A stretch of DNA of 64,000 nt. It comes from Deltaproteobacteria bacterium (GTDB lineage: Bacteria > Desulfobacterota > Desulfobacteria > Desulfobacterales > Desulfatibacillaceae). A program made the translations under genes and the position numbers. The DNA lies in contig JACRLG010000002.1 in NCBI GenBank assembly GCA_016235345.1, forward strand, positions 96,965 to 160,964, in the 5' to 3' direction. Shown in pieces: positions 20,195-60,947 of this stretch. Every line of letters begins with the position of its first letter. Within the stretch, counting starts at the first letter, position 1. Under the pieces are notes generated by a model. It did not search any database. It was not told where the DNA came from and saw only the letters and a program-made list of their open reading frames with translations.

Positions 20195-20366
20195 TTCATT
20201 TTTCATTGGGGGTAGTTGCCCAATTCCGTCATTCCGGCGGAGGCCGGAATCCAGTTTTTAACCGTTTGCCGCCTTTTACTGGACCCCGGCTTCCGCCGGG
20301 GTGACGGGGGCTACCTTTTCATAAAATGGAACTAAACATTGCGCCCAGTAATATTATGACGGGCAA
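20195..20366. repeat. Interspersed repeat family C, copy 2
   Basis: Collinear with 1262-1431: GTTGCCCAATTCCGTCATTCCGGC, the paired CTGGACCCCGGC...GGGGTGACGG hairpin, ATAAAATGGAACTAAAC, and AGTAATATTA. It ends in GACGGGCAATT, the inverse of its own left end. Its right edge supplies the stop codon of the truncated hicB gene. Confidence 0.75.
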
Positions 20367-46816: not shown

Positions 46817-48484
46817 GTGGGCCTCTCATTCAAAGAAACCGGCCCCGCCTCAAAAAGCCTTCGAGGCCGCACCACCGTGGCGCTGTGCTACCCCAACACC
46901 TACGCCGTGGGCATGGCGAGCCTGGGGTTTCAGACGGTTTACAGGCTTTTTAACGAAAACGAATCAACCGCCTGCGAGCGGGTTTTCACGGACAGCACGG
47001 AGCGCTCCGGCCCGGTTTCCCTGGAATCCGGAAAACCGCTGAAATCCTTCGACATCCTGGCCTTTTCCCTCTCCTTTGAAAGCGATTACTTAAACGTCGT
47101 TTCCATGCTGGGTGCCGGTGGCGTCCCCCTTCTTTCGTCCGAGAGAACCGGCGCGCACCCGCTGGTGATCGCGGGAGGCGTGGCCTCCTTCATCAATCCC
47201 GAACCCCTGGCCCCCTTCGTGGACCTCTTTCTTCTGGGAGAGGCCGAGGCGGTCCTTCCGGGCTTTCTGGGCATGTTTGACCCGAAACGGGACAGGTCTG
47301 AGATGCTCGCCGACATGGCCCGGAGCCTTCCCGGCGCATACGTCCCCGCCCTTTACGTCCCGGAGTGGGACAAAAACGGCCATCTTGTGTCATTTTCGCC
47401 CATATCGGGCGCGCCCGAAAAAGTCCGCCGGGTGCACGCCAAAGACTCCCCGGATTTTCCCACCGAGTCCTCTTTCGTAAGCCCGGACGCCGCATTCGAC
47501 TCATTCCTCGTGGAGGTGGCCAGGGGCTGCCCCCACGGGTGCAGGTTCTGCGCGGCGGGCTACGTCTACCGGCCCGTCCGGTTCCGAACGCTTGAAATGC
47601 TCAAGGACTCGGTTGACCGGGGCCTTTCGCTCACCAGTAAAATCGGGCTTCTTGGAGCCGCCGTCACCGACCTGCCTTGCCTTTCCGAGCTTTGCCAATA
47701 TGCGGTGGAGCGCGGTGCGAGGCTCGCCTTCTCGTCTCTCAGGGCCGACGCCATGACCCCCGAAATCGCCCGCGCCATGGCGTCCGCAGGAGCCAAGACC
47801 GCCACCATCGCCCCGGACGCCGGAAGCGAGAGAATGCGCCGGGTGATCGGCAAGGGGATTACAGAAGATGACGTTTTGAACGCTGCGGAAATGCTGGTGG
47901 CCGCAGGGGTCCCAAATCTCAAGCTCTACTTCATGGCGGGCCTTCCCCACGAGACCCTGGCCGACGTGGACGCCATAGCGGCGCTCACCAGAAAGGTCAA
48001 AACGGCCTTTCTGGGCCAGAGCAAAAAAAAGGGGAGGATGGGCCAGATCGTGGTGAACGTCAGCTCCTTCGTGCCCAAGCCCGTCACGCCCTTCCAGTGG
48101 GCGGCCATGGACACCGTGGAGACTCTCGCTTTGAAGATGAAAAGGATAAGGGAGGGATTGAAGGGCCTTGCCAACGTGACCGCGCGCACCGACGTTCCGC
48201 GCCACGCCTTCATCCAGGCCCTTTTGTCGCGGGGGGACCGAAGGACGGGGGAAATTCTTCAGGCGGCCCTCAAAAACCAGGGCAACTGGCCGAAAACCTT
48301 GAAGGAATCGGAAATCGACCCGGCCTTTTACGTCAACCGCGAGCGCCCCGCAGCCGAGCTTTTCCCCTGGGATTTCATAGAGCACGACGTCTCGAAAAAA
48401 ACCCTCCACCGCCTCTGGGAAAAATCCCGCGAAGACGCCCTCGCCCCAGACCTGCCCGCGCCGCCCACGTTCCAGAAGACCTGA
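46817..48484 (+). CDS. Radical SAM protein (B12-binding-like N-terminal domain)
   Basis: The 555-residue protein has an N-terminal domain with A-L-C-Y-P-N-T-Y-A-V-G-M-A-S-L-G-F near 24-40, which is characteristic of an uncharacterised radical SAM group often annotated as B12-binding. The core has the cluster motif C-P-H-G-C-R-F-C near 238 (the CX3CX2C pattern) and an E-V-A-R-G-C lead-in. Radical SAM enzymes cleave S-adenosylmethionine with a [4Fe-4S] cluster; the substrate here is unknown. Homologues are sometimes paired with a DUF2344 protein, which is not in this window. It starts at GTG. Its last codons abut a YD-repeat remnant. Confidence 0.82.
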   Translation: MGLSFKETGPASKSLRGRTTVALCYPNTYAVGMASLGFQTVYRLFNENESTACERVFTDSTERSGPVSLESGKPLKSFDILAFSLSFESDYLNVVSMLGAGGVPLLSSERTGAHPLVIAGGVASFINPEPLAPFVDLFLLGEAEAVLPGFLGMFDPKRDRSEMLADMARSLPGAYVPALYVPEWDKNGHLVSFSPISGAPEKVRRVHAKDSPDFPTESSFVSPDAAFDSFLVEVARGCPHGCRFCAAGYVYRPVRFRTLEMLKDSVDRGLSLTSKIGLLGAAVTDLPCLSELCQYAVERGARLAFSSLRADAMTPEIARAMASAGAKTATIAPDAGSERMRRVIGKGITEDDVLNAAEMLVAAGVPNLKLYFMAGLPHETLADVDAIAALTRKVKTAFLGQSKKKGRMGQIVVNVSSFVPKPVTPFQWAAMDTVETLALKMKRIREGLKGLANVTARTDVPRHAFIQALLSRGDRRTGEILQAALKNQGNWPKTLKESEIDPAFYVNRERPAAELFPWDFIEHDVSKKTLHRLWEKSREDALAPDLPAPPTFQKT

Positions 48485-48516
48485 TTCATGCGGCCCTTCG
48501 TGTCGTAGCTGCGGGA
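48484..48516 (-). pseudogene. YD-repeat (Rhs-like) remnant 1
   Basis: On the minus strand this reads S-R-S-Y-D-T-K-G-R-M-N-Q, the core of a YD repeat as in Rhs toxins. It has no start codon and is only about a dozen residues, so it is debris of a larger gene. The plus-strand bases TTCATGCGGCCCTT recur in remnant 2 at 49004. Confidence 0.5.
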
Positions 48517-48606
48517 AATAGATTAGACTAAATGTAACGTGCATGAAAAACAGATGCCAATTCATGGTATGCTTGACTTTTAAGACAAGAAAAATTTTTC
48601 ATAATA

Positions 48607-48951
48607 TTAATTGCCATATATTAATAAAATAAAAAAATTATGCACGCTAACAACATCATCAAAATACTTCATAAACATAAATAGATATACCATACATAAT
48701 AAGCTGTTAAATATAATTGCCAAAGTCATAAAATCATTAAAATTTGAATTGATATTTTTAAATTTGTAATAAATTTTTAAAATAACCGATATAAATAATA
48801 ATACTTTCGATACCAATATGCCACTTTTAAGCCACATATATGAAGGTATAACATCGTGATATCTATTAATACTTGATAATACAGTAGTAATAATAAGCCA
48901 AATAAAAAAATTAATAAGCACATTAGTACAAAATTTTTTATAACTCGTCAT
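48607..48951 (-). CDS. AT-rich small membrane protein (orphan)
   Basis: From the ATG at 48951 this gives 114 residues with about three hydrophobic helices (I-N-F-F-I-W-L-I-I-T-T-V-L, then V-L-L-F-I-S-V-I-L-K-I, then A-I-I-F-N-S-L-L-C-M-V-Y-L-F). Composition is far lower in GC than the flanking genes. The open frame continues upstream across the YD remnant in another register, which is not coding for this protein. No RBS is obvious. Membrane immunity proteins or toxins in Rhs loci can look like this, but I recognise no family. Confidence 0.45.
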   Translation of the reverse strand: MTSYKKFCTNVLINFFIWLIITTVLSSINRYHDVIPSYMWLKSGILVSKVLLFISVILKIYYKFKNINSNFNDFMTLAIIFNSLLCMVYLFMFMKYFDDVVSVHNFFILLIYGN

Positions 48952-48989
48952 GTACCGGTATCCGATCACATAGTACCAACATCGATGTT

Positions 48990-49076
48990 TCACGCGACCT
49001 TGTTCATGCGGCCCTTTTCGTCGTAGCCGTAGGAGACCGAGTAGCCCGCGCCCACGGAGAAGCAAAACCGTCCGGC
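48990..49076 (-). pseudogene. YD-repeat (Rhs-like) remnant 2
   Basis: The minus strand reads A-G-R-F-C-F-S-V-G-A-G-Y-S-V-S-Y-G-Y-D-E-K and then G-R-M-N-K-V-A and a stop. The GYDEKGRMNKV part is a YD repeat of the Rhs family, without a start or the other repeats. GC content here matches the genome average, unlike the neighbouring AT-rich genes. Confidence 0.55.
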
Positions 49077-49115
49077 AGATGTTTGACTTTTACATGTCAG
49101 ACAATTTCTTGAGCT

Positions 49116-49526
49116 TTATAAATAAGTAGATAACCTCCACATATTCTTTAATCTTTGTTCTATATCTTGACCTATTTCAGTGACAATTTTTTCACTTTCA
49201 GACGAAGGCGCGTAAAGATAATTCCCATAAACATCATCGTGTCTGAGTTCAAAATTTATTCCTCTGGCTTTAAGAATCCATCTTCTTGCATCAGGTCCAT
49301 CAATCATCTTGATAATATCTATTGAATATTCATTCTTTAAAAACTGTATTAACTTATCAAAGCCTTCCCATCCAGGAATTGCACAAATGTCAACTTCTAA
49401 GGGCTGGTTCGGTTTTATATTGAATAAAACTGGTTTATGCAATTTATCACCTCGAAAGTCCAAGTGTTGCATCAACATTAGCATTCGATCTTTGAGATCC
49501 TTTAACCACATATCTCCAGACATCAT
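49116..49526 (-). CDS. AT-rich protein of unknown function, possible immunity gene
   Basis: The frame gives up to 136 residues with mixed alpha/beta character (K-P-V-L-F-N-I-K-P-N-Q-P-L-E-V-D-I-C-A-I-P-G-W-E-G-F-D-K-L-I) and no signal or membrane segment. Several in-frame ATGs exist between residues 1 and 20, and none has a strong RBS, so the start is uncertain. Its position beside Rhs debris, small size, acidic content and low GC fit a stand-alone immunity gene, but this is inference. I recognise no named family with confidence. Confidence 0.45.
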   Translation of the reverse strand: MMSGDMWLKDLKDRMLMLMQHLDFRGDKLHKPVLFNIKPNQPLEVDICAIPGWEGFDKLIQFLKNEYSIDIIKMIDGPDARRWILKARGINFELRHDDVYGNYLYAPSSESEKIVTEIGQDIEQRLKNMWRLSTYL

Positions 49527-49617
49527 CCTCTTTCAGACCTTTTTCATGTGCTTTTTGAATAACTTCTTGTAAAGTTATAGGATGCGATAATGCTTCTGCA
49601 GCAACTCTGTCCGCCAT
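49447..49617 (-). CDS. Short unknown protein overlapping the preceding gene
   Basis: From the ATG at 49617 (the frame opens with TTG at 49635) this gives 56 residues: M-A-D-R-V-A-A-E-A-L-S-H-P-I-T-L-Q-E-V-I-Q-K-A-H-style helices with K-G-L-K-E-D-D-V-W. It overlaps the start of the 49116-49526 frame by 80 bases. The two could be one gene split by a frameshift, or a coupled pair. No RBS is visible, so support is modest. Confidence 0.35.
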   Translation of the reverse strand: MADRVAAEALSHPITLQEVIQKAHEKGLKEDDVWRYVVKGSQRSNANVDATLGLSR

Positions 49618-49687
49618 TAAGTCTATTGCCTGCAATTTTGAGAGGGGTTTTTACCAGCCAGACTCTTATTGGAGCCCTCAATATCCC

Positions 49688-50887
49688 TCAGCCGCCAAAC
49701 ATCGCCTTTGCCAGCAGGGTCACCGGGTGGACGACCTTGTAGGGGGTGTGGGCCTCGATCTGCCACTTGCAGGTTTCGCAGTCCGTCACCACCACGTCCG
49801 GGTTTTCCGCCGCGATCTGGCCAAAGAGCTTCTCCCCAACGTCCGTTGCAACCTTCGCGTATTCCTTTTTAAACCCGTAGGTTCCCGAAAGCCCGCAGCA
49901 CTCGGTGGCGGGCATGACAAGTTTAAGCTCCGGTATGCGCCTTAAAATGTCCACCGTGTGCACCGCCCCGCCCATGCGCGAGAGGTGGCAGGGCGCGTGA
50001 TAAACGGCCTTTACGGGCACGGGTTTCAGTTCGGGCAGGTTTCCGGCTGCGGCCTCCTCGGCCAGAAAACGGGTTATGAACCGGATTCGCGGGGCGATCC
50101 TGCTGTTATCTATGGATAAAATGTTAGGATACTCGTTTGTCAGCGCGTAGGCGCAGGACGACGACGAGGCCACGATGGCGACGTCCCTGCCCGCCGCCGC
50201 TTTCAGGGCGTCCACGTTGTGCCGGGCGTTTTTCTGCGCCTTTTTTATGAAGCCGTTGGCGATCAAAGGCACTCCGCAGCACTTTTCGTTGGTAATGGCC
50301 ACCCCGTAGCCAAGGGCGTTCAGCACCCTCACCACGTTGTTTCCAAGCTCGTGGTCGAAATAATTGACGTAGCAGCCGGTGAAATAGACCAGTTTTCGGG
50401 AAAACTTCGCCTGCTCGTCGGCCCTTTTGGCGAATTTCCGGCGAAAGGTGCCGCTGGCGTATTTGGGCATCTGGGCGGAATCCGAAATCCCCACAAGGCG
50501 GTCCATGCCCCATTTCACGGCCCTGTTCCGGGTCATGGCGTTGACCACGGAAGGAAACAGGGTTGCGGCGCTTCCGGCAAGATCGGTGCGGCTCATGAAA
50601 AAGTCGCGGGGCCGCAAGGCGCTTTTGGCGTGGCGGTGCCGGGCCTTCTGGATGATGTCGGCGATCCGCACGTCCGACGGGCACACGATCTCGCAGCGCT
50701 TGCAGTTGGTGCAGTAGGAAAGCGTGTCGTCCACCAGTTCCGGGTTTTTTATGCGCAGCCGCTCGGTGTCCGGGCCGCTCGACTTGGGGCCCGGATAGAG
50801 GGGTGTCACCCGCGCCACCGGGCAATAGGCGGTGCAGACGGTGCATTTTATGCAGTGGTCGAAACTTATGTTTTCAAGATCGATCAT
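49688..50887 (-). CDS. glpC: Anaerobic glycerol-3-phosphate dehydrogenase, subunit C
   Basis: The 399-residue protein has two [4Fe-4S] ferredoxin motifs near the start, C-I-K-C-T-V-C-T-A-Y-C-P and C-T-N-C-K-R-C-E-I-V-C-P, followed by two CCG/cysteine-rich domains (C-C-G-V-P near 205 and E-C-C-G-L-S-G-T-Y near 335). This matches GlpC, the membrane-associated iron-sulfur subunit that passes electrons from GlpAB to quinones. It lies 30 bases after glpB. The conserved ends show no truncation. Confidence 0.93.
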   Translation of the reverse strand: MIDLENISFDHCIKCTVCTAYCPVARVTPLYPGPKSSGPDTERLRIKNPELVDDTLSYCTNCKRCEIVCPSDVRIADIIQKARHRHAKSALRPRDFFMSRTDLAGSAATLFPSVVNAMTRNRAVKWGMDRLVGISDSAQMPKYASGTFRRKFAKRADEQAKFSRKLVYFTGCYVNYFDHELGNNVVRVLNALGYGVAITNEKCCGVPLIANGFIKKAQKNARHNVDALKAAAGRDVAIVASSSSCAYALTNEYPNILSIDNSRIAPRIRFITRFLAEEAAAGNLPELKPVPVKAVYHAPCHLSRMGGAVHTVDILRRIPELKLVMPATECCGLSGTYGFKKEYAKVATDVGEKLFGQIAAENPDVVVTDCETCKWQIEAHTPYKVVHPVTLLAKAMFGG

Positions 50888-53898: not shown

Positions 53899-54126
53899 TT
53901 CCCGCTCCGCAAAAGTTGACGCGAAAAGACCGGTCGGACAAATTTTCAATGAAATACCATACAACCGGCCTTATTTCCAACCTTTAAACAGAAAGCCGCA
54001 AAACGGAAAGGCCCAAAACCAAAGGATTGCAGAAAACCTGTTTTCAAGCTCCGATACCCGTGGTATGATGGATACAATGGAGTGACGGATAAGGGCCGCC
54101 CCTCACCACGGGGGTGAGATTTCTCA

Positions 54127-54262
54127 GTCACCCCGGTGCCAAGGGGTTTCCGTTACCCCGGAGCCAAGGAGTTTCCGTCACCCCGGCGTAGGCCGGGGTC
54201 CAGAGAAGGTGCAGGAGGCAAAAGACTGGATTCCGGCTTTCGCCGGAATGACGGCAGGGGAG
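54127..54262. repeat. 25-base tandem copies followed by an inverted hairpin pair
   Basis: Two 25-base units (GTCACCCCGGTGCCAAGGGG type, 54127-54151 and 54152-54176) differ by a few bases. They run into a hairpin pair CCGTCACCCCGGC...GCCGGGGTCCAG and CTGGATTCCGGC...GCCGGAATGACGG, the same motif used in family C. The 53899-54126 stretch shows nothing else I can assign. Confidence 0.65.
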
Positions 54263-54328
54263 GCCCCGGCCCCTTCATCGTGGACGACGGATTCAGGCCG
54301 CCCGCAGATAAAATTTGGGGGAAATCAA

Positions 54329-54357
54329 TTGACAACAAAATTCTTGTAATATAAATA
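54329..54357 (+). promoter_or_regulatory. Promoter of the AT-rich two-gene cassette
   Basis: TTGACA at 54329 is followed by TATAAA at 15 bases (or TAAATA at 17). The start of the following gene is about 45 bases downstream, with GGGAG before the ATG. Confidence 0.55.
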
Positions 54358-54402
54358 TGACACCATAACCATATGCATTAACCTAAAAAGGGAGAAACAA
54401 TC

Positions 54403-55263
54403 ATGCCTAGATCAAAATTACTAAAAGTCGGTATTTTAAACATCACGACCCACCCTCATTCACCTAAAAAATATATAGAATTATTTGATGATATATTCGA
54501 GCTATCTAAAATTGAAAAAATCAGGGGCTCAGACTATGGTATGCTTTATTCTTTAACGCGTGAAAAATTCGGAGAATCTTCGATTTTACATGGCACTATT
54601 TGTAGGTTTTTAAATATTGACCCAAATGAACCATGGTTTGATACAAAAAAAGTAAAAAAGCTTGATCCAAAAGATGGAACTTTTGTTGTCCCAATTCCAG
54701 AAAATTTGAAGCCTAATCGGAGAGATATTGTGTATATTTTTTTCGTTGATAAGCACCGTTTGTTTATTGATACCGATAATATTTCAATTAGGGATGCTAT
54801 GGTGCTAATAACTAGATTATGTGCTAATAAACAAATTCGTAAGAAATATGGTGAAGTTGTAGTTAATATAGAATCAACAAAAGAGGCTATTGATAACATT
54901 TTGAAATTGAAATCTATTAGGAAGTTAGAAATTTATTTCGCAAAACCCAATCCAGACGACCTCGCCGAAGTTGAAAAGAAAATAATGAAAAGACTTAACA
55001 AACAGAATGTAAAAAAAATTGATGAAAAGTTAATTACAGATGACGAGGCGGGTATAAAACCTGATGATGAGACACAAGCTTTAATGTATATGGCTAGGTC
55101 TAATGGTAAAGTAATTGCCACTAGCCGCGAAGATAGCCAAACAATGGTAATTTCAACAAAAGAACATCCTTTAATCGAAACAGAGTTTTATCATCCCGAA
55201 AGAGATACTGTATTTTTAGCAATGAAACGAGTGATAGGGGCGTACTTGAGAAGAAAAGGATAG
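54403..55263 (+). CDS. DUF4747-family-like protein
   Basis: The 286-residue cytoplasmic protein starts with V-G-I-L-N-I-T-T-H-P-H-S-P-K-K-Y-I-E-L-F and continues with an I-R-G-S-D-Y-G-M-L-Y segment and F-L-N-I-D-P-N-E-P-W-F. From memory this pattern is that of DUF4747 proteins, a family of unknown function reported from mobile and defence-like contexts. The C-terminal third is lysine- and aspartate-rich (K-I-M-K-R-L-N-K-Q-N). GC content is far below the genome average, codon use is AT-ending, and it has its own promoter, all signs of transfer. It is followed after 4 bases by a membrane protein with which it forms an operon. Confidence 0.65.
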   Translation: MPRSKLLKVGILNITTHPHSPKKYIELFDDIFELSKIEKIRGSDYGMLYSLTREKFGESSILHGTICRFLNIDPNEPWFDTKKVKKLDPKDGTFVVPIPENLKPNRRDIVYIFFVDKHRLFIDTDNISIRDAMVLITRLCANKQIRKKYGEVVVNIESTKEAIDNILKLKSIRKLEIYFAKPNPDDLAEVEKKIMKRLNKQNVKKIDEKLITDDEAGIKPDDETQALMYMARSNGKVIATSREDSQTMVISTKEHPLIETEFYHPERDTVFLAMKRVIGAYLRRKG

Positions 55264-55267
55264 TTTA

Positions 55268-55804
55268 ATGCAGTTATTGAGCATCATTAGGGAAACATAT
55301 AAAAATTTCTTTGAGATTGTTGCGCGGTATTGGCGTTTCTATGGTGGTGTGCAATCATTTATTTCTTCAACTTATTTGCATCTTTCTATCATTTTAGGAG
55401 TGATATTCCATCCTCCTTGGAACAAGGACGCAATATGGTATAATGTAAGTTTAGCAATTCTCCCCAATATGATAGGTTTCACATTAGGTGGCTATGCAAT
55501 ACTTTTTGCATTTGGTGATAAAGAATTTTTTAAATTATTTAAAGCCGACAAAGATGACAATAACGGACCTTCACCATACTTACAATTGCATGGAACATTT
55601 ATTCATTTTATAGTTATTCAAATCATCTCATTGCTATTTGCATTATTATCAATGACGATAAGTATTCAAGATGGACTGATATCATGGATAGGTTTTATAC
55701 TATTAATATATTCAATATTGTTAGCGTTAGCTGCAGTGTTTGCTATTTTACGATTAGCTAGCTTGTTTGATATATGGAATCAAAATAATGATGATAAAGA
55801 ATAA
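55268..55804 (+). CDS. Four-helix membrane protein of the AT-rich cassette
   Basis: The 178-residue protein has an N-terminal amphipathic region, then hydrophobic helices near 35-50 (S-S-T-Y-L-H-L-S-I-I-L-G-V), 65-85, 110-130 (F-I-H-F-I-V-I-Q-I-I-S-L-L-F-A-L-L) and 135-165. It ends in an acidic tail (N-Q-N-N-D-D-K-E). AAGGA precedes the ATG and the gap to the first gene is 4 bases, so the two are co-translated. No family is recognised. A soluble sensor with a membrane partner fits the layout of abortive-infection systems, but that is inference. Confidence 0.6.
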   Translation: MQLLSIIRETYKNFFEIVARYWRFYGGVQSFISSTYLHLSIILGVIFHPPWNKDAIWYNVSLAILPNMIGFTLGGYAILFAFGDKEFFKLFKADKDDNNGPSPYLQLHGTFIHFIVIQIISLLFALLSMTISIQDGLISWIGFILLIYSILLALAAVFAILRLASLFDIWNQNNDDKE

Positions 55805-55835
55805 ATTAGTCCCGTAGGTTGCCGCCCACTGCCGC

Positions 55836-57131
55836 CTAATCCCCAATGAGCTTGTTCTTCACTATGGCGCTGCCTTTTACGACGTTCTGGGCCAGGAATA
55901 GGGAGGCGTCCCGGAAGTCCAGCATGGGGCTGGGAAGGCCGAAAAGACGCGGGACCTTCACGAAGAGGTCGCGCGCGCCCACGGGGCAGCCCTTCACCCG
56001 GTGGATGGATTTGGCCTCGAGTTTTCCCGTCACCCGCGTGCAGTCGCCGATGAGAAGCACCGGCCCGTCCGGCATTATTACGTCGCCCCGGAAGACCCCT
56101 GTTACTATCGCGCCCTTTTTCGCCGCCAAAAGGGACCCCGGCCTGCGCTTTTCAATGGTCCCCAGGCAGCCTTTCAAGGCCCCCTCGCAGCCGCCGTCGC
56201 AGATTATGTCGCTATCCTTGGCAAAGCCCGCGAAAAACCTGATGGGCGTCTCAAGCTCGCTCAAAACCTGGAAGAGGCGCGGCTTGCCCTTGGGTTTGGC
56301 CCGGAGTACCGAAATGTCCGCGTCGCCCGTTATCTCGATTTCGGATAAGTCTATGGTGCCGAAACCACGGTCGGCGGCGATTTGAAGATGCTTCACGTCC
56401 CTGGGGTCGTAGCCCATGATATGTGCCGCCACGGCGTCCAGGGCCAGGGGGTCCCGGCTGATAAGGAGCGCCCCAAGCCGCACCGGGTAGGGGGCGGACT
56501 CGAAGCCGTAGGTGATGTCTATGGCGTCCGCAACGATGAGGTCGGGATAGCCGGGTTCCAGAAGGTCCACGATTTTTTCGTGGATGCGCCAGTCGTGATA
56601 GAGCATCCTCTCCCTGTGGCTTAAAATTCCGATGTTGAGCTTTAAGGAGCAGGTTATGGACGCGAAAATGTGGAATTTCAACTTCGGGAGCCAGATTTTG
56701 CAGTCAGCCTCCACCATTCGGCGCGAGAGCAGGACCTCCTTGTGGCAGGAGGCGCGTTTGAGATTCACCTTGATAAGCTCGTGCTCGTTGAGATCGATGA
56801 CCTCGGCCCCGACCTTTTTCCCGAGGTCGAAGTAGCCCGCCTCCTTCAGAAAAAGCCTTGAGGGAATGCCGTAGCCGCCGGACTCCCCTATGGTGAGGCG
56901 CGCGGGCTTGCTCTCATTGACGAGCGAAGCCACGGCCTCCACAACCTTCGGGTTGGTGTAGGAGTCGTGGATGTAGCCCTTGTTGGCGGAAACCACGTTG
57001 GGCTTGATGAAGACCTTCCCGGCGAAATTGAAGCCGCCGCCAAGCTCATCAAGGGACTGCCGCACGATTTCGCGGATTGCGTCTGCATCATATTCCGGGC
57101 AGGAGCGGATTATCACCTTGGATTTTATCAT
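55836..57131 (-). CDS. DUF362-domain protein
   Basis: I chose the ATG at 57131 (M-I-K-S-K-V-I-I-R), preceded by AGGTGGGAACC; the GTG at 57140 overlaps that site. The 431-residue protein has the DUF362 features F-I-K-P-N-V-V-S near 43 and I-G-E-S-G-G-Y-G near 83, and a second half with C-D-G-G-C-E-G-A-L-K-G-C, a cysteine-rich loop that could hold a metal or Fe-S cluster. DUF362 proteins are widespread in anaerobes; their reaction is not established. It stands alone on this strand between the AT-rich cassette and repeat R6. Confidence 0.75.
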   Translation of the reverse strand: MIKSKVIIRSCPEYDADAIREIVRQSLDELGGGFNFAGKVFIKPNVVSANKGYIHDSYTNPKVVEAVASLVNESKPARLTIGESGGYGIPSRLFLKEAGYFDLGKKVGAEVIDLNEHELIKVNLKRASCHKEVLLSRRMVEADCKIWLPKLKFHIFASITCSLKLNIGILSHRERMLYHDWRIHEKIVDLLEPGYPDLIVADAIDITYGFESAPYPVRLGALLISRDPLALDAVAAHIMGYDPRDVKHLQIAADRGFGTIDLSEIEITGDADISVLRAKPKGKPRLFQVLSELETPIRFFAGFAKDSDIICDGGCEGALKGCLGTIEKRRPGSLLAAKKGAIVTGVFRGDVIMPDGPVLLIGDCTRVTGKLEAKSIHRVKGCPVGARDLFVKVPRLFGLPSPMLDFRDASLFLAQNVVKGSAIVKNKLIGD

Positions 57132-59165: not shown

Positions 59166-60947
59166 TCAGAACAGAAGCTCGAAAAACCGTGACATCTCCA
59201 TCTTTCCCTTGTGGAGTCCCTGCTGGGCCGAAAGCTGATCGGCGCTTATCTCGCGGGTCAACCTTTCCTGAAAGCTCATAAAGGCCGAAATCCGGCTCCG
59301 GCAGAAATCCGTGTCGTTTATGAAAACGAGGTTTTCCGATTCCACGTAGCAGGAGCGCACCGAAAGGTTGAAGGAGCCTATGGCGCAGAGGGAATCGTCG
59401 AACAGGAACTCCTTGTTGTGCATGTAGGGCTGGGGCTCCTCCGGATTGGGGCTGCCGACCACCTCGAAGACCCTTACTCCGGCTTCAAGCAGGGGCGCAA
59501 GGTACTTGATGGTGAGATAGTACCCGGCGGAGAAGCTCACCTCCTGGCCGGTGTTCTGGGAATTGGTGATGATGCGCACGTCCACCCCCCGCCGGGCAGC
59601 GTCCATCAGGGCGTCCTTTATTATGCAGTCCGGGAGGATCACGAACTGGGAAAAGGCGAAGATGCTCATGGTGGCGGCCTCTATGGAATGGACCATGGCC
59701 GTGGTCGTCCCGTACTTGCGCTCCCAGGGGCGGCTGTTGACGAAAAGGGCCGACACCCCGCCCTGGCCTTCGGTCCACTCGGCGATGGCCTCTGGAAGCC
59801 GCGTGTTGGGCGCGCTTGCCGCTATCTGAGCGAAACCCGAAAGAAAGCCCGCCTGGATCCGGCCCACGATGGGACCTGAAAGGGCGAGATCGAGATCGGT
59901 CCAATGGGTGAAATACTTGTCCTCAAGGTTGCGCCCGCCCACTATGGCGTACCTTCCGTCCACCACCAGGATTTTTTCGTGTACTGCGTAATCCAAGAGG
60001 GGCAGGGCCGGAAGCCCGCCCGGCCCCGCGCCGGAGGTGGATTTCAACTCATCAAGCTCAAGTTCGCCCTTTATCCTTCGGCTGGCGTCCTGGAGCTTCT
60101 GGAGCCAGTGGTCCTTTATGGGCCCGGTCACCGGGTCCTTGTCGTCATCCTCGTGAAGGGGGTTCCTGTTGAAGAAAAGGGCGGTTATGCCTCCCAGGCG
60201 CACCCGCCGCTTCTTCTCCCGCCTGCCCTTGGCGTTTCCCGAAGGTCGGCGCTCCTCTGATCCGTCCCGGCCAAGGTCGGAGAGGAACTGGTTGTACTTG
60301 AGCCGGAGAATGCTTACCGGGCTCAAGGGGAGTTGGGTGTCGGAATTCAGCACCATGTTCACGGAAACCCCCTCCTCCGCCTTGCGGATAAGGGTGTCCA
60401 GCATTCTTGCCCCTGACCCGCTTCCCCCAAGGGCGTAGGTCTGGAGATTGATCTGGCGGGCGGCCCCCTCGATGAGGGAAAACCTTAGATTCAGGGCGTC
60501 CGCGCCCCCGTCCAGAACCCGCACCGTGTTCCCGGAGGTGAAGTCCTCGCCTGTGAGGGCTTCCATCTGCCTTAAAAACTCCGGGCTCCCCACGGGGGGG
60601 GTGTCCTCGCGCCTTTTGTAGTCCACCGAAAAGGTGCCCATGCCACGCCCCCTGGCCCCGGTGGAGTCCTCGGCCACTATGGGTATGCGGTAGCGTCCGG
60701 GTTCCAGGTGAAGGGGAATTTCCATCTCCCCCGCGTAATCCCCCTCGCCGGAGCGGTCCAGGACGAAGCCGGGATCGGGCTTAATGGGCAGCCTGTCGAA
60801 AATGGAGGTGTGGCGGAGGTCCACCCACACGCTTCTGATGGAAGCGAAGTCATGGGAGGAAAACACCCGGCAGCGGACGCCCATCCGTGACGAGCCGTCG
60901 TTTTGCGCCGAATTGGGGGAAAAGGCTATGTTCTTCACTATTACCAT
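59166..60947 (-). CDS. Phospholipase D-like protein with two HKD motifs
   Basis: The 593-residue protein begins with about 115 residues of beta-strand-rich sequence unlike PLD enzymes, followed by a PLDc-type domain. HKD motif 1 is V-H-E-K-I-L-V-V-D near residue 320 and motif 2 is M-H-N-K-E-F-L-F-D near 509, both with the following G-x-x-N pattern (G-G-R-N, G-S-F-N). Between the two half-sites is a long basic insertion with K-G-R-R-E-K-K-R-R. Family members are phospholipases, cardiolipin synthases or nucleases, and the insertion could suit either. Lacks an obvious signal peptide. It is 17 bases upstream of the kinase gene on the same strand, so the two may share a transcript. Confidence 0.82.
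   Translation of the reverse strand: MVIVKNIAFSPNSAQNDGSSRMGVRCRVFSSHDFASIRSVWVDLRHTSIFDRLPIKPDPGFVLDRSGEGDYAGEMEIPLHLEPGRYRIPIVAEDSTGARGRGMGTFSVDYKRREDTPPVGSPEFLRQMEALTGEDFTSGNTVRVLDGGADALNLRFSLIEGAARQINLQTYALGGSGSGARMLDTLIRKAEEGVSVNMVLNSDTQLPLSPVSILRLKYNQFLSDLGRDGSEERRPSGNAKGRREKKRRVRLGGITALFFNRNPLHEDDDKDPVTGPIKDHWLQKLQDASRRIKGELELDELKSTSGAGPGGLPALPLLDYAVHEKILVVDGRYAIVGGRNLEDKYFTHWTDLDLALSGPIVGRIQAGFLSGFAQIAASAPNTRLPEAIAEWTEGQGGVSALFVNSRPWERKYGTTTAMVHSIEAATMSIFAFSQFVILPDCIIKDALMDAARRGVDVRIITNSQNTGQEVSFSAGYYLTIKYLAPLLEAGVRVFEVVGSPNPEEPQPYMHNKEFLFDDSLCAIGSFNLSVRSCYVESENLVFINDTDFCRSRISAFMSFQERLTREISADQLSAQQGLHKGKMEMSRFFELLF

Follow-up and report, generated by a model that had tools for sequence, protein, structure and literature searches.

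A low-GC pair of DUF4747 and membrane-protein genes as a putative phage-defence cassette of RexAB type

The window analysed here is a stretch of 64,000 nucleotides, and the cassette that concerns us consists of two open reading frames on its plus strand, the second starting 4 nt after the first ends. The first-pass annotation had singled out these two frames, and both are where it placed them, 4 bases apart. The features of the locus are the following:

54230-54252, plus strand: palindromic repeat, REP-like (our own label), flanking the cassette 150 bases upstream of the DUF4747 gene
54329-54355, plus strand: possible promoter, recognised by eye, with TTGACA at 54329-54334, a 15-nt spacer and TATAAA at 54350-54355
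54403-55263, plus strand: DUF4747 gene, an open reading frame of 286 aa
55268-55804, plus strand: helical membrane protein gene, an open reading frame of 178 aa, PHROG 20580 family

The GC content of the DUF4747 gene is 32.5% and that of the membrane gene 31.1%, against 57.5% for the window, so the low GC first remarked upon is confirmed; GC3 of the cassette genes is about 26%. Plausible RBS-like sequences can be seen by eye ahead of both. The proposed promoter fares less well: TTGACA and TATAAA are real in the letters, but with a 15-nt spacer they make a weak promoter candidate, and a consensus scan requiring 16-18 nt did not list them. Because 53900-56000 holds 9 promoter-like sites against 6.0 ± 2.8 in shuffled sequences, such matches near the cassette are not clearly in excess of chance. 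No terminator-like site was listed by the scan 3′ of position 55804. The REP-like repeat recurs at 32 sites (two mismatches at most) in the 4.0-Mb genome, two further copies in the window lying at 1300-1322 and 20228-20250; a reversed control pattern gave 0 sites. The cassette's DUF4747 gene is the only copy in its genome. The cassette is a real unit of two genes, intact, compositionally foreign and tightly paired.

On its left the cassette is flanked by three minus-strand genes with DAO, FAD_binding_2 and CCG/Fe-S domains, which look like an anaerobic glycerol-3-phosphate dehydrogenase set (the glp names that we give them are an assumption), and to the right lies a DUF362 gene. To place the unit “between core genes” is only loosely right, the flanks being FAD/Fe-S dehydrogenase-like genes and a DUF362 gene. 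The DUF362 neighbour has close relatives (62-81% identity) in four same-genus or same-family genomes, and tblastn found no glpA-, glpB- or glpC-like gene in any of the four stretches around them (4.2-19.9 kb). Since no glp-like gene accompanies the relatives' DUF362 gene, the cassette stands at a synteny break where no clean empty site can be defined. Relatives of the cassette were found in 0/8 of the listed same-genus or same-family genomes (83-100% complete). Foreign composition and absence from all eight fit acquisition, which is probably how the unit came here; the earlier claim of acquisition thus holds on these two points, but not with a clean insertion site.

A second AT-rich patch, at 48607-49635, carries minus-strand ORFs of 152, 136, and 62 aa in a region where GC is 43.5% (48001-49000) and 45.8% (49001-50000). 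The two longer ones gave no Pfam match at E 0.01 and no PADLOC match at E 1e-5. The patch is possibly another acquired fragment.

The protein of 286 aa matches PF15931 (DUF4747) with 226.9 bits and E 3.8e-67 over positions 1-257 of the 257-position profile, for which the curated cut-off is 27 bits. By this profile match it is a full member of the Pfam family, which is more than the “DUF4747-like” of the first-pass annotation. It also matches phrog_10040 (E 3.7e-59), annotated, as is phrog_20580, as being of unknown function. The protein is basic, with a pI of 9.3 and a net charge of about +9. PADLOC 2.0.0 returned one weak match for it (E 0.016) and none for the membrane protein. Kiwa is a system of KwaA, a four-pass membrane protein, with KwaB; neither was among the PADLOC matches of the window proteins at E 10, in a collection that we take to include Kiwa models.

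The membrane protein of 178 aa has no Pfam family over cut-off and matches phrog_20580 (E 3.2e-30). Its AlphaFold2 model (pLDDT 90.3) is all-helical, with helices at residues 35-47, 57-81, 103-131, and 137-175 preceded by shorter N-terminal ones. The “four-helix” description agrees with the four long helices of the model but less well with a crude hydropathy scan of 44 relatives, which gave four segments in 12, five in 20, six in 11 and seven in 1; because of this spread over 4-7 segments, a count of four depends on the model. P66, N67, G70, F71, L73, G74, G75, A77, and G83 are each common to 35-44 of the 44 aligned sequences. For the membrane model there was no PDB match at E 0.001 or better, and no RexB structure among the matches listed. 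Channel-like and other helical fold matches were set aside as generic: the best in VIA was Orai (7kr5, Z 9.1, 99 residues aligned, 2.5 Å), below the Z of about 14 that, as VIA warns, helical bundles can reach.

With both proteins described, the idea that the cassette is a decaying, non-functional remnant in this genome can be weighed. An AT-rich orphan at a synteny break, with a weak promoter match only, is what such a remnant might look like, but both reading frames are intact, the 226.9 bits of the DUF4747 match extend over the full profile, and both proteins keep the residues common to nearly all 44 aligned sequences. Decay is highly improbable.

The AlphaFold2 model of the DUF4747 protein, built on a 44-sequence alignment, has a pLDDT of 93.1 and a pTM of 0.89. 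In a Foldseek search of the PDB its best match is lambda RexA (8twq_B, E 1.6e-4, probability 0.97). A PDZ protein comes second by E-value (probability 0.44), RdgC (2owl_A, E 3.9e-4) has the highest match probability, 1.00, and human kinetochore chains, named CENP-N, appear further down. The TM-scores are low (RexA 0.22, RdgC 0.38), we infer because the domains stand at differing angles. VIA ranks CENP-N, which we take to correspond to CHL4, at Z 8.3 (7r5v_N, 114 residues aligned, 3.4 Å), followed by RexA at Z 7.7 (135 aligned, rmsd 4.3 Å, spanning model residues 7-286 and chain residues 1-264) and Iml3 at Z 7.3 (4kr1, 113 aligned, 3.4 Å). RdgC follows at Z 6.4 (2owl_B, 206 aligned, rmsd 10.2), tied with unrelated rows at Z 6.1-6.3, of which spermine synthase (Z 6.3) is one. 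Please note that a Z below 8 may, as VIA warns, mean mere common arrangements, and that the RexA row, at 7.7, falls below this value when taken alone.

The structural relatives given for RexA itself in PMC11077077 are RdgC, IML3, and CHL4, and a dimerisation domain is described there as interrupting the globular domain of RexA. Read by eye, the DUF4747 model runs through strands to about residue 123, a helix-rich insert at about 129-211, more strands and a final helix, a modelled order similar to that of RexA's split globular domain. Against predicted viral proteins the best match was an uncharacterised phage protein (E 7.6e-17), with a phage RdgC fifth (E 2.6e-4). On the model, the DUF4747 protein is predicted to have a RexA/RdgC-type fold.

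At the level of sequence, the window proteins match neither the RexA family PF15969 nor the RexB family PF15968 at E 10 (hhalign probability <1% for the latter), and neither of them matches the CarolAnn families phrog_36224 and phrog_38328 at that threshold. With single sequences, hhalign linked DUF4747 with none of RexA, CarolAnn gp44, and Butters gp30, and the membrane partner with none of RexB, CarolAnn gp43, and Butters gp31. Small alignments, in a comparison that covered RexA, RexB, and the CarolAnn proteins, gave no link either; the Sbash proteins entered only this small-alignment comparison and the scoring of HMMs against shuffles. HMM scores for the cytosolic proteins (RexA itself and those of CarolAnn and Butters) were no better than those of shuffled sequences. 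In the reverse test with a RexA profile, 35/44 DUF4747 sequences were scored (mean -2.1, best 2.0 bits), as were 1257 shuffles (mean -2.9, best 6.8 bits). A likeness seen by eye between part of the RexA dimerisation domain and DUF4747 residues 150-215 was dropped, as the profile tests gave it no support.

It is important to remember that alignment-based hhalign also fails to link RexA with CarolAnn gp44, a pair treated as homologues in the literature (PMC11077077), so that the hhalign negative says little either way. On sequence, then, the window pair belongs to neither the RexA nor the RexB family, and because no sequence similarity was detected, kinship with RexAB rests on fold and architecture.

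The architecture is conserved. When loci were collected membrane-first, a DUF4747 ORF lay directly upstream on the same strand in 43/47 viral contigs and in 3/3 confirmed genome contigs, with a spacing of -131 to +24 nt; we take the large overlaps to stem from mechanical start choice. When they were collected DUF4747-first, the membrane partner was downstream in 13/13 intact genome or plasmid loci (the window, G059, G044, G335, G488, G892, G1003, G747, G767, G760, and three plasmids) and in 4/4 viral loci, three of which are contigs already in the membrane-first set. The adjacency across genomes, which the first-pass annotation proposed to check, is borne out. The figure of 43/47 counts near-identical viral loci separately (e.g., L030-L032, L024/L026, L034/L035, L052/L053, and L062/L063), G670 was entered once, as L013, and L005, a fragment that scores below threshold and contains three stops in frame, was excluded from the adjacency count.

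The four unpaired viral loci seem to be decayed or incomplete copies: L044 begins right at an end of its contig, L048 has a truncated membrane gene, and L024 and L026 share the same upstream sequence, in which DUF4747 seems reduced to a 3′ tail shared with the intact copy of L029. In these last two the membrane gene is intact and the gene upstream is NinG-like by eye. With duplicates removed, L012-L017 and L022-L066 supplied 43 DUF4747 and 46 membrane sequences. Over 43 loci the two proteins diverge in parallel (r 0.84, with 0/2000 permutations as high and a maximum of 0.20), which is expected of linked genes that were simply inherited or moved together. The pairing of DUF4747 with the membrane gene is nearly obligate.

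The phylum sample gave matches in 5/395 genomes, 4 of them over the cut-off, and the class sample in 2/291, the genome of the window being included in both counts. For G670, the Methylotenera record of L013, whose phylum we take to be Pseudomonadota, the phylum sample gave 6/349, G670 included. Searched with a single DUF4747 protein, the genome contigs yielded 0 confirmed relatives from 105 candidate stretches, and tblastn of phage records with the window DUF4747, the L003 DUF4747, and the window membrane protein gave no match. The window cassette has no DNA match in E. coli. By blastn, a relative of the L030 pair is present in 19/5426 E. coli genomes, 13 of them holding at least 80% of the pair. 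Overall, DUF4747 pairs occur in the phylum of the window and in genomes and plasmids of Pseudomonadota, and viral contigs and a P4-like satellite carry them as well.

The two E. coli cases examined, NCTC10973 and F9792, both have an annotated DUF4747 protein with a hypothetical protein. The F9792 pair lies near glycoside hydrolase and secretion genes, elsewhere than that of NCTC10973, which lies between psu (phage polarity suppression) and an integrase next to ssrA. We read the latter as riding a P4-like satellite, from its psu, integrase, and ssrA. The pair is the sole annotated cargo between psu and the integrase in the NCTC10973 stretch (L109:8063-11759). The IMG/VR locus L030 likewise has Psu and integrase neighbours, and this psu-int slot is a source of antiviral systems according to Rousset et al. 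(PMC9122126). When the pair and the integrase were used together as a query, 367 E. coli genomes matched and 1 held at least 80% of it; among the 25 matches listed, 12 were confined to the pair and 12 to the integrase, and this separate coverage fits cassette exchange.

Around 39 viral pairs, 136 neighbour proteins fall to 114 PHROG families, and the matches listed (25 of 114) include integrase, repressor, NinG, portal, head protease, and endolysin. L092 has a type I specificity gene whose end is 47 nt ahead of DUF4747, and L014 a type III methyltransferase whose start lies 51 nt beyond the membrane gene; these are the only flanks resolved to genes, from a rescan of 10/131 flank proteins of which 4 had matches and 6 had none (E 1e-20). 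The flanks of the 13 loci (131 proteins) matched 227 PADLOC families, 25 of them listed, and nine control stretches, drawn from seven of these genomes (135 proteins), matched 28, in a comparison that counts families including redundant models, draws on unequal locus sets, and omits proteins of at least 900 aa. Many of the control matches listed (25 of 28) are to helicase, RtcR, or DndA/SspA models, which presumably have housekeeping paralogues. The excess is supportive of a defence context, not a clean statistic.

Proximity to defence genes, which was likewise proposed as a check, holds for some relatives, by way of the restriction genes of L092 and L014 and of prophage or satellite cargo, but nothing solid lies near the window's own copy. 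There is no defence island there, 9/10 neighbouring proteins being without a PADLOC match at E 1e-5. The remaining one, a PLD-type protein by eye, gave a partial, weak DrmC match (E 4.1e-11). That match, at 59166-60947, is probably a common domain, not a DISARM system.

These contexts bear on another possibility, namely that the pair is a maintenance or regulatory module of mobile elements (for instance, an addiction or lysogeny-control pair) whose benefit goes to the element and not to defence. Such a module would suit the relatives carried by plasmids, viral contigs, and a satellite, and lambda RexA is reported also to bias the lysis-lysogeny switch. However, the pair is chromosomal and free-standing here, some relatives adjoin restriction genes of types I and III, and the satellite copy in E. 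coli occupies a published antiviral cargo slot (PMC9122126). We consider a purely element-serving role quite improbable.

Several pairs in the literature resemble the cassette. Lambda RexA and RexB are also two adjacent genes; among solved structures it is RexA that the DUF4747 model matches best, and RexB, of 143 aa against 178 aa in the cassette, is reported to have four predicted transmembrane segments. The lambda proteins form Pfam PF15969 and PF15968, separate from the cassette families, and the rex genes follow cI, whereas the cassette pair stands alone. CarolAnn gp44/gp43 and Sbash gp30/gp31 are built as the cassette is, with a cytosolic gene and then a four-pass membrane gene. Both pairs are reported to be carried by temperate phages, and their cytosolic proteins, of 370 and 372 residues against 286 in the cassette, to have a weak HHpred match to DUF4747. 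Unlike for the cassette protein, a Pfam scan at E 10 gave nothing for CarolAnn gp44, and the PHROGs also differ (36224 and 38328 for CarolAnn, 10040 and 20580 for the cassette). The sources also state that CarolAnn defence needs both gp44 and gp43, that Kita gp53, a phage protein, is toxic to cells expressing the two, and that Sbash defence needs both gp30 and gp31 (this last as told by other papers, including PMC12894663).

The RexABpp pair of P. putida prophage P1 (PP_5643/PP_5644) was recognised, in PMC12894663, by HHpred and fold, with a DALI match to 8TWQ; it is reported there to bind DNA, while its four-helix membrane effector arrests growth and damages the membrane. We liken it to the cassette by description, not sequence, and the text of that paper has 0 mentions of DUF4747. 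None of the open-licence papers searched mentions PF15931, nor did the portions of that literature available to us hold an experiment on a protein shown to be above the PF15931 cut-off. In a table of a Salmonella paper, a hypothetical gene of 606 bp comes after a DUF4747 gene of 894 bp, the same lengths as those of the pair in E. coli NCTC10973.

Butters gp30/gp31 is again a prophage pair of a cytosolic and a four-pass membrane protein, the cassette likewise joining a cytosolic and a membrane protein. A DUF4747 HHpred E of 140 is reported for its gp30, for which our own Pfam scan at E 10 found no DUF4747 match. On its own, gp30 is reported to inhibit two phages strongly, an effect that is weakened when gp31 is expressed with it. 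By that example, the DUF4747 protein would itself be the antiviral effector, held or tempered by the membrane protein until infection, and strict pairing is equally compatible with an effector kept beside its restraint and with a sensor kept beside its effector. Butters is, however, presented in PMC12894663 as differing from the other four systems, and the strong conservation of helix 2 in the membrane protein suggests an active role for it, not only one of anchoring. We regard this division of roles as unlikely.

Reports of 2019-2020 on Sbash, CarolAnn, and Butters thus already described the plan of a cytosolic protein with a weak DUF4747 match and a four-pass membrane protein. In 2026 a “DUF4747/CarolAnn prophage system” was named among immune operons, lying downstream of capK-capS in 17/443 cases. 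The suggestion that the cassette is an undescribed system finds no support in these reports, since RexAB-type and DUF4747/CarolAnn systems are already described. The companion suggestion, that a soluble component with a membrane effector follows the plan of abortive infection, fits the RexAB type.

By RexAB-type we mean a conserved pair in which a multi-pass membrane gene comes directly after a cytosolic one, with a RexA/RdgC-type fold in the cytosolic protein, dimeric DNA binding without specificity, and a membrane effector activity and phage exclusion that need both genes. The pairing is found here, and the fold on the predicted model; the pI and net charge of the DUF4747 protein are an indirect hint of the DNA binding, and the effector activity and exclusion would be expected of the pair. 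From predicted fold, gene order, and membrane partner, the cassette is probably a two-component phage-defence system of RexAB type. Put more broadly, it is very probably a phage-defence unit of an already described kind.

If the cassette is of RexAB type, the basic DUF4747 protein would form a dimer that clamps DNA non-specifically, and would respond to the DNA of a phage or to DNA-protein intermediates. On engagement it would activate the membrane protein, perhaps through the loop at about residues 85-102. The membrane protein may then oligomerise and permeabilise or depolarise the inner membrane, so that growth would stop and the infection be aborted. Conserved helix 2 (P66, G70, F71, L73, G74, G75, A77, and G83) and the loop after it are the best candidates for the pore or the contact. 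We see about an even chance that RexAB is one branch of a widespread immune class and that DUF4747 pairs are another, in which a DNA clamp like RdgC would detect intermediates of phage replication or recombination and open a pore formed around the conserved PN-x-x-GF-x-LGG-x-A helix of the partner.

The activation of lambda RexAB by T4 rII has stayed unexplained for some 70 years, and only five RexAB-like systems have been described, according to PMC12894663. If the DUF4747 pairs are RexAB-type, many natural variants would be gained, including the satellite-slot copy of E. coli, and sensor and trigger would become testable by comparison. The fold result may also offer a structural reason for the weak HHpred link between DUF4747 and RexA in earlier papers. 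The worth of the cassette would therefore lie not in a new system, but in a wider RexAB class and a fold-based link that can be put to the test.
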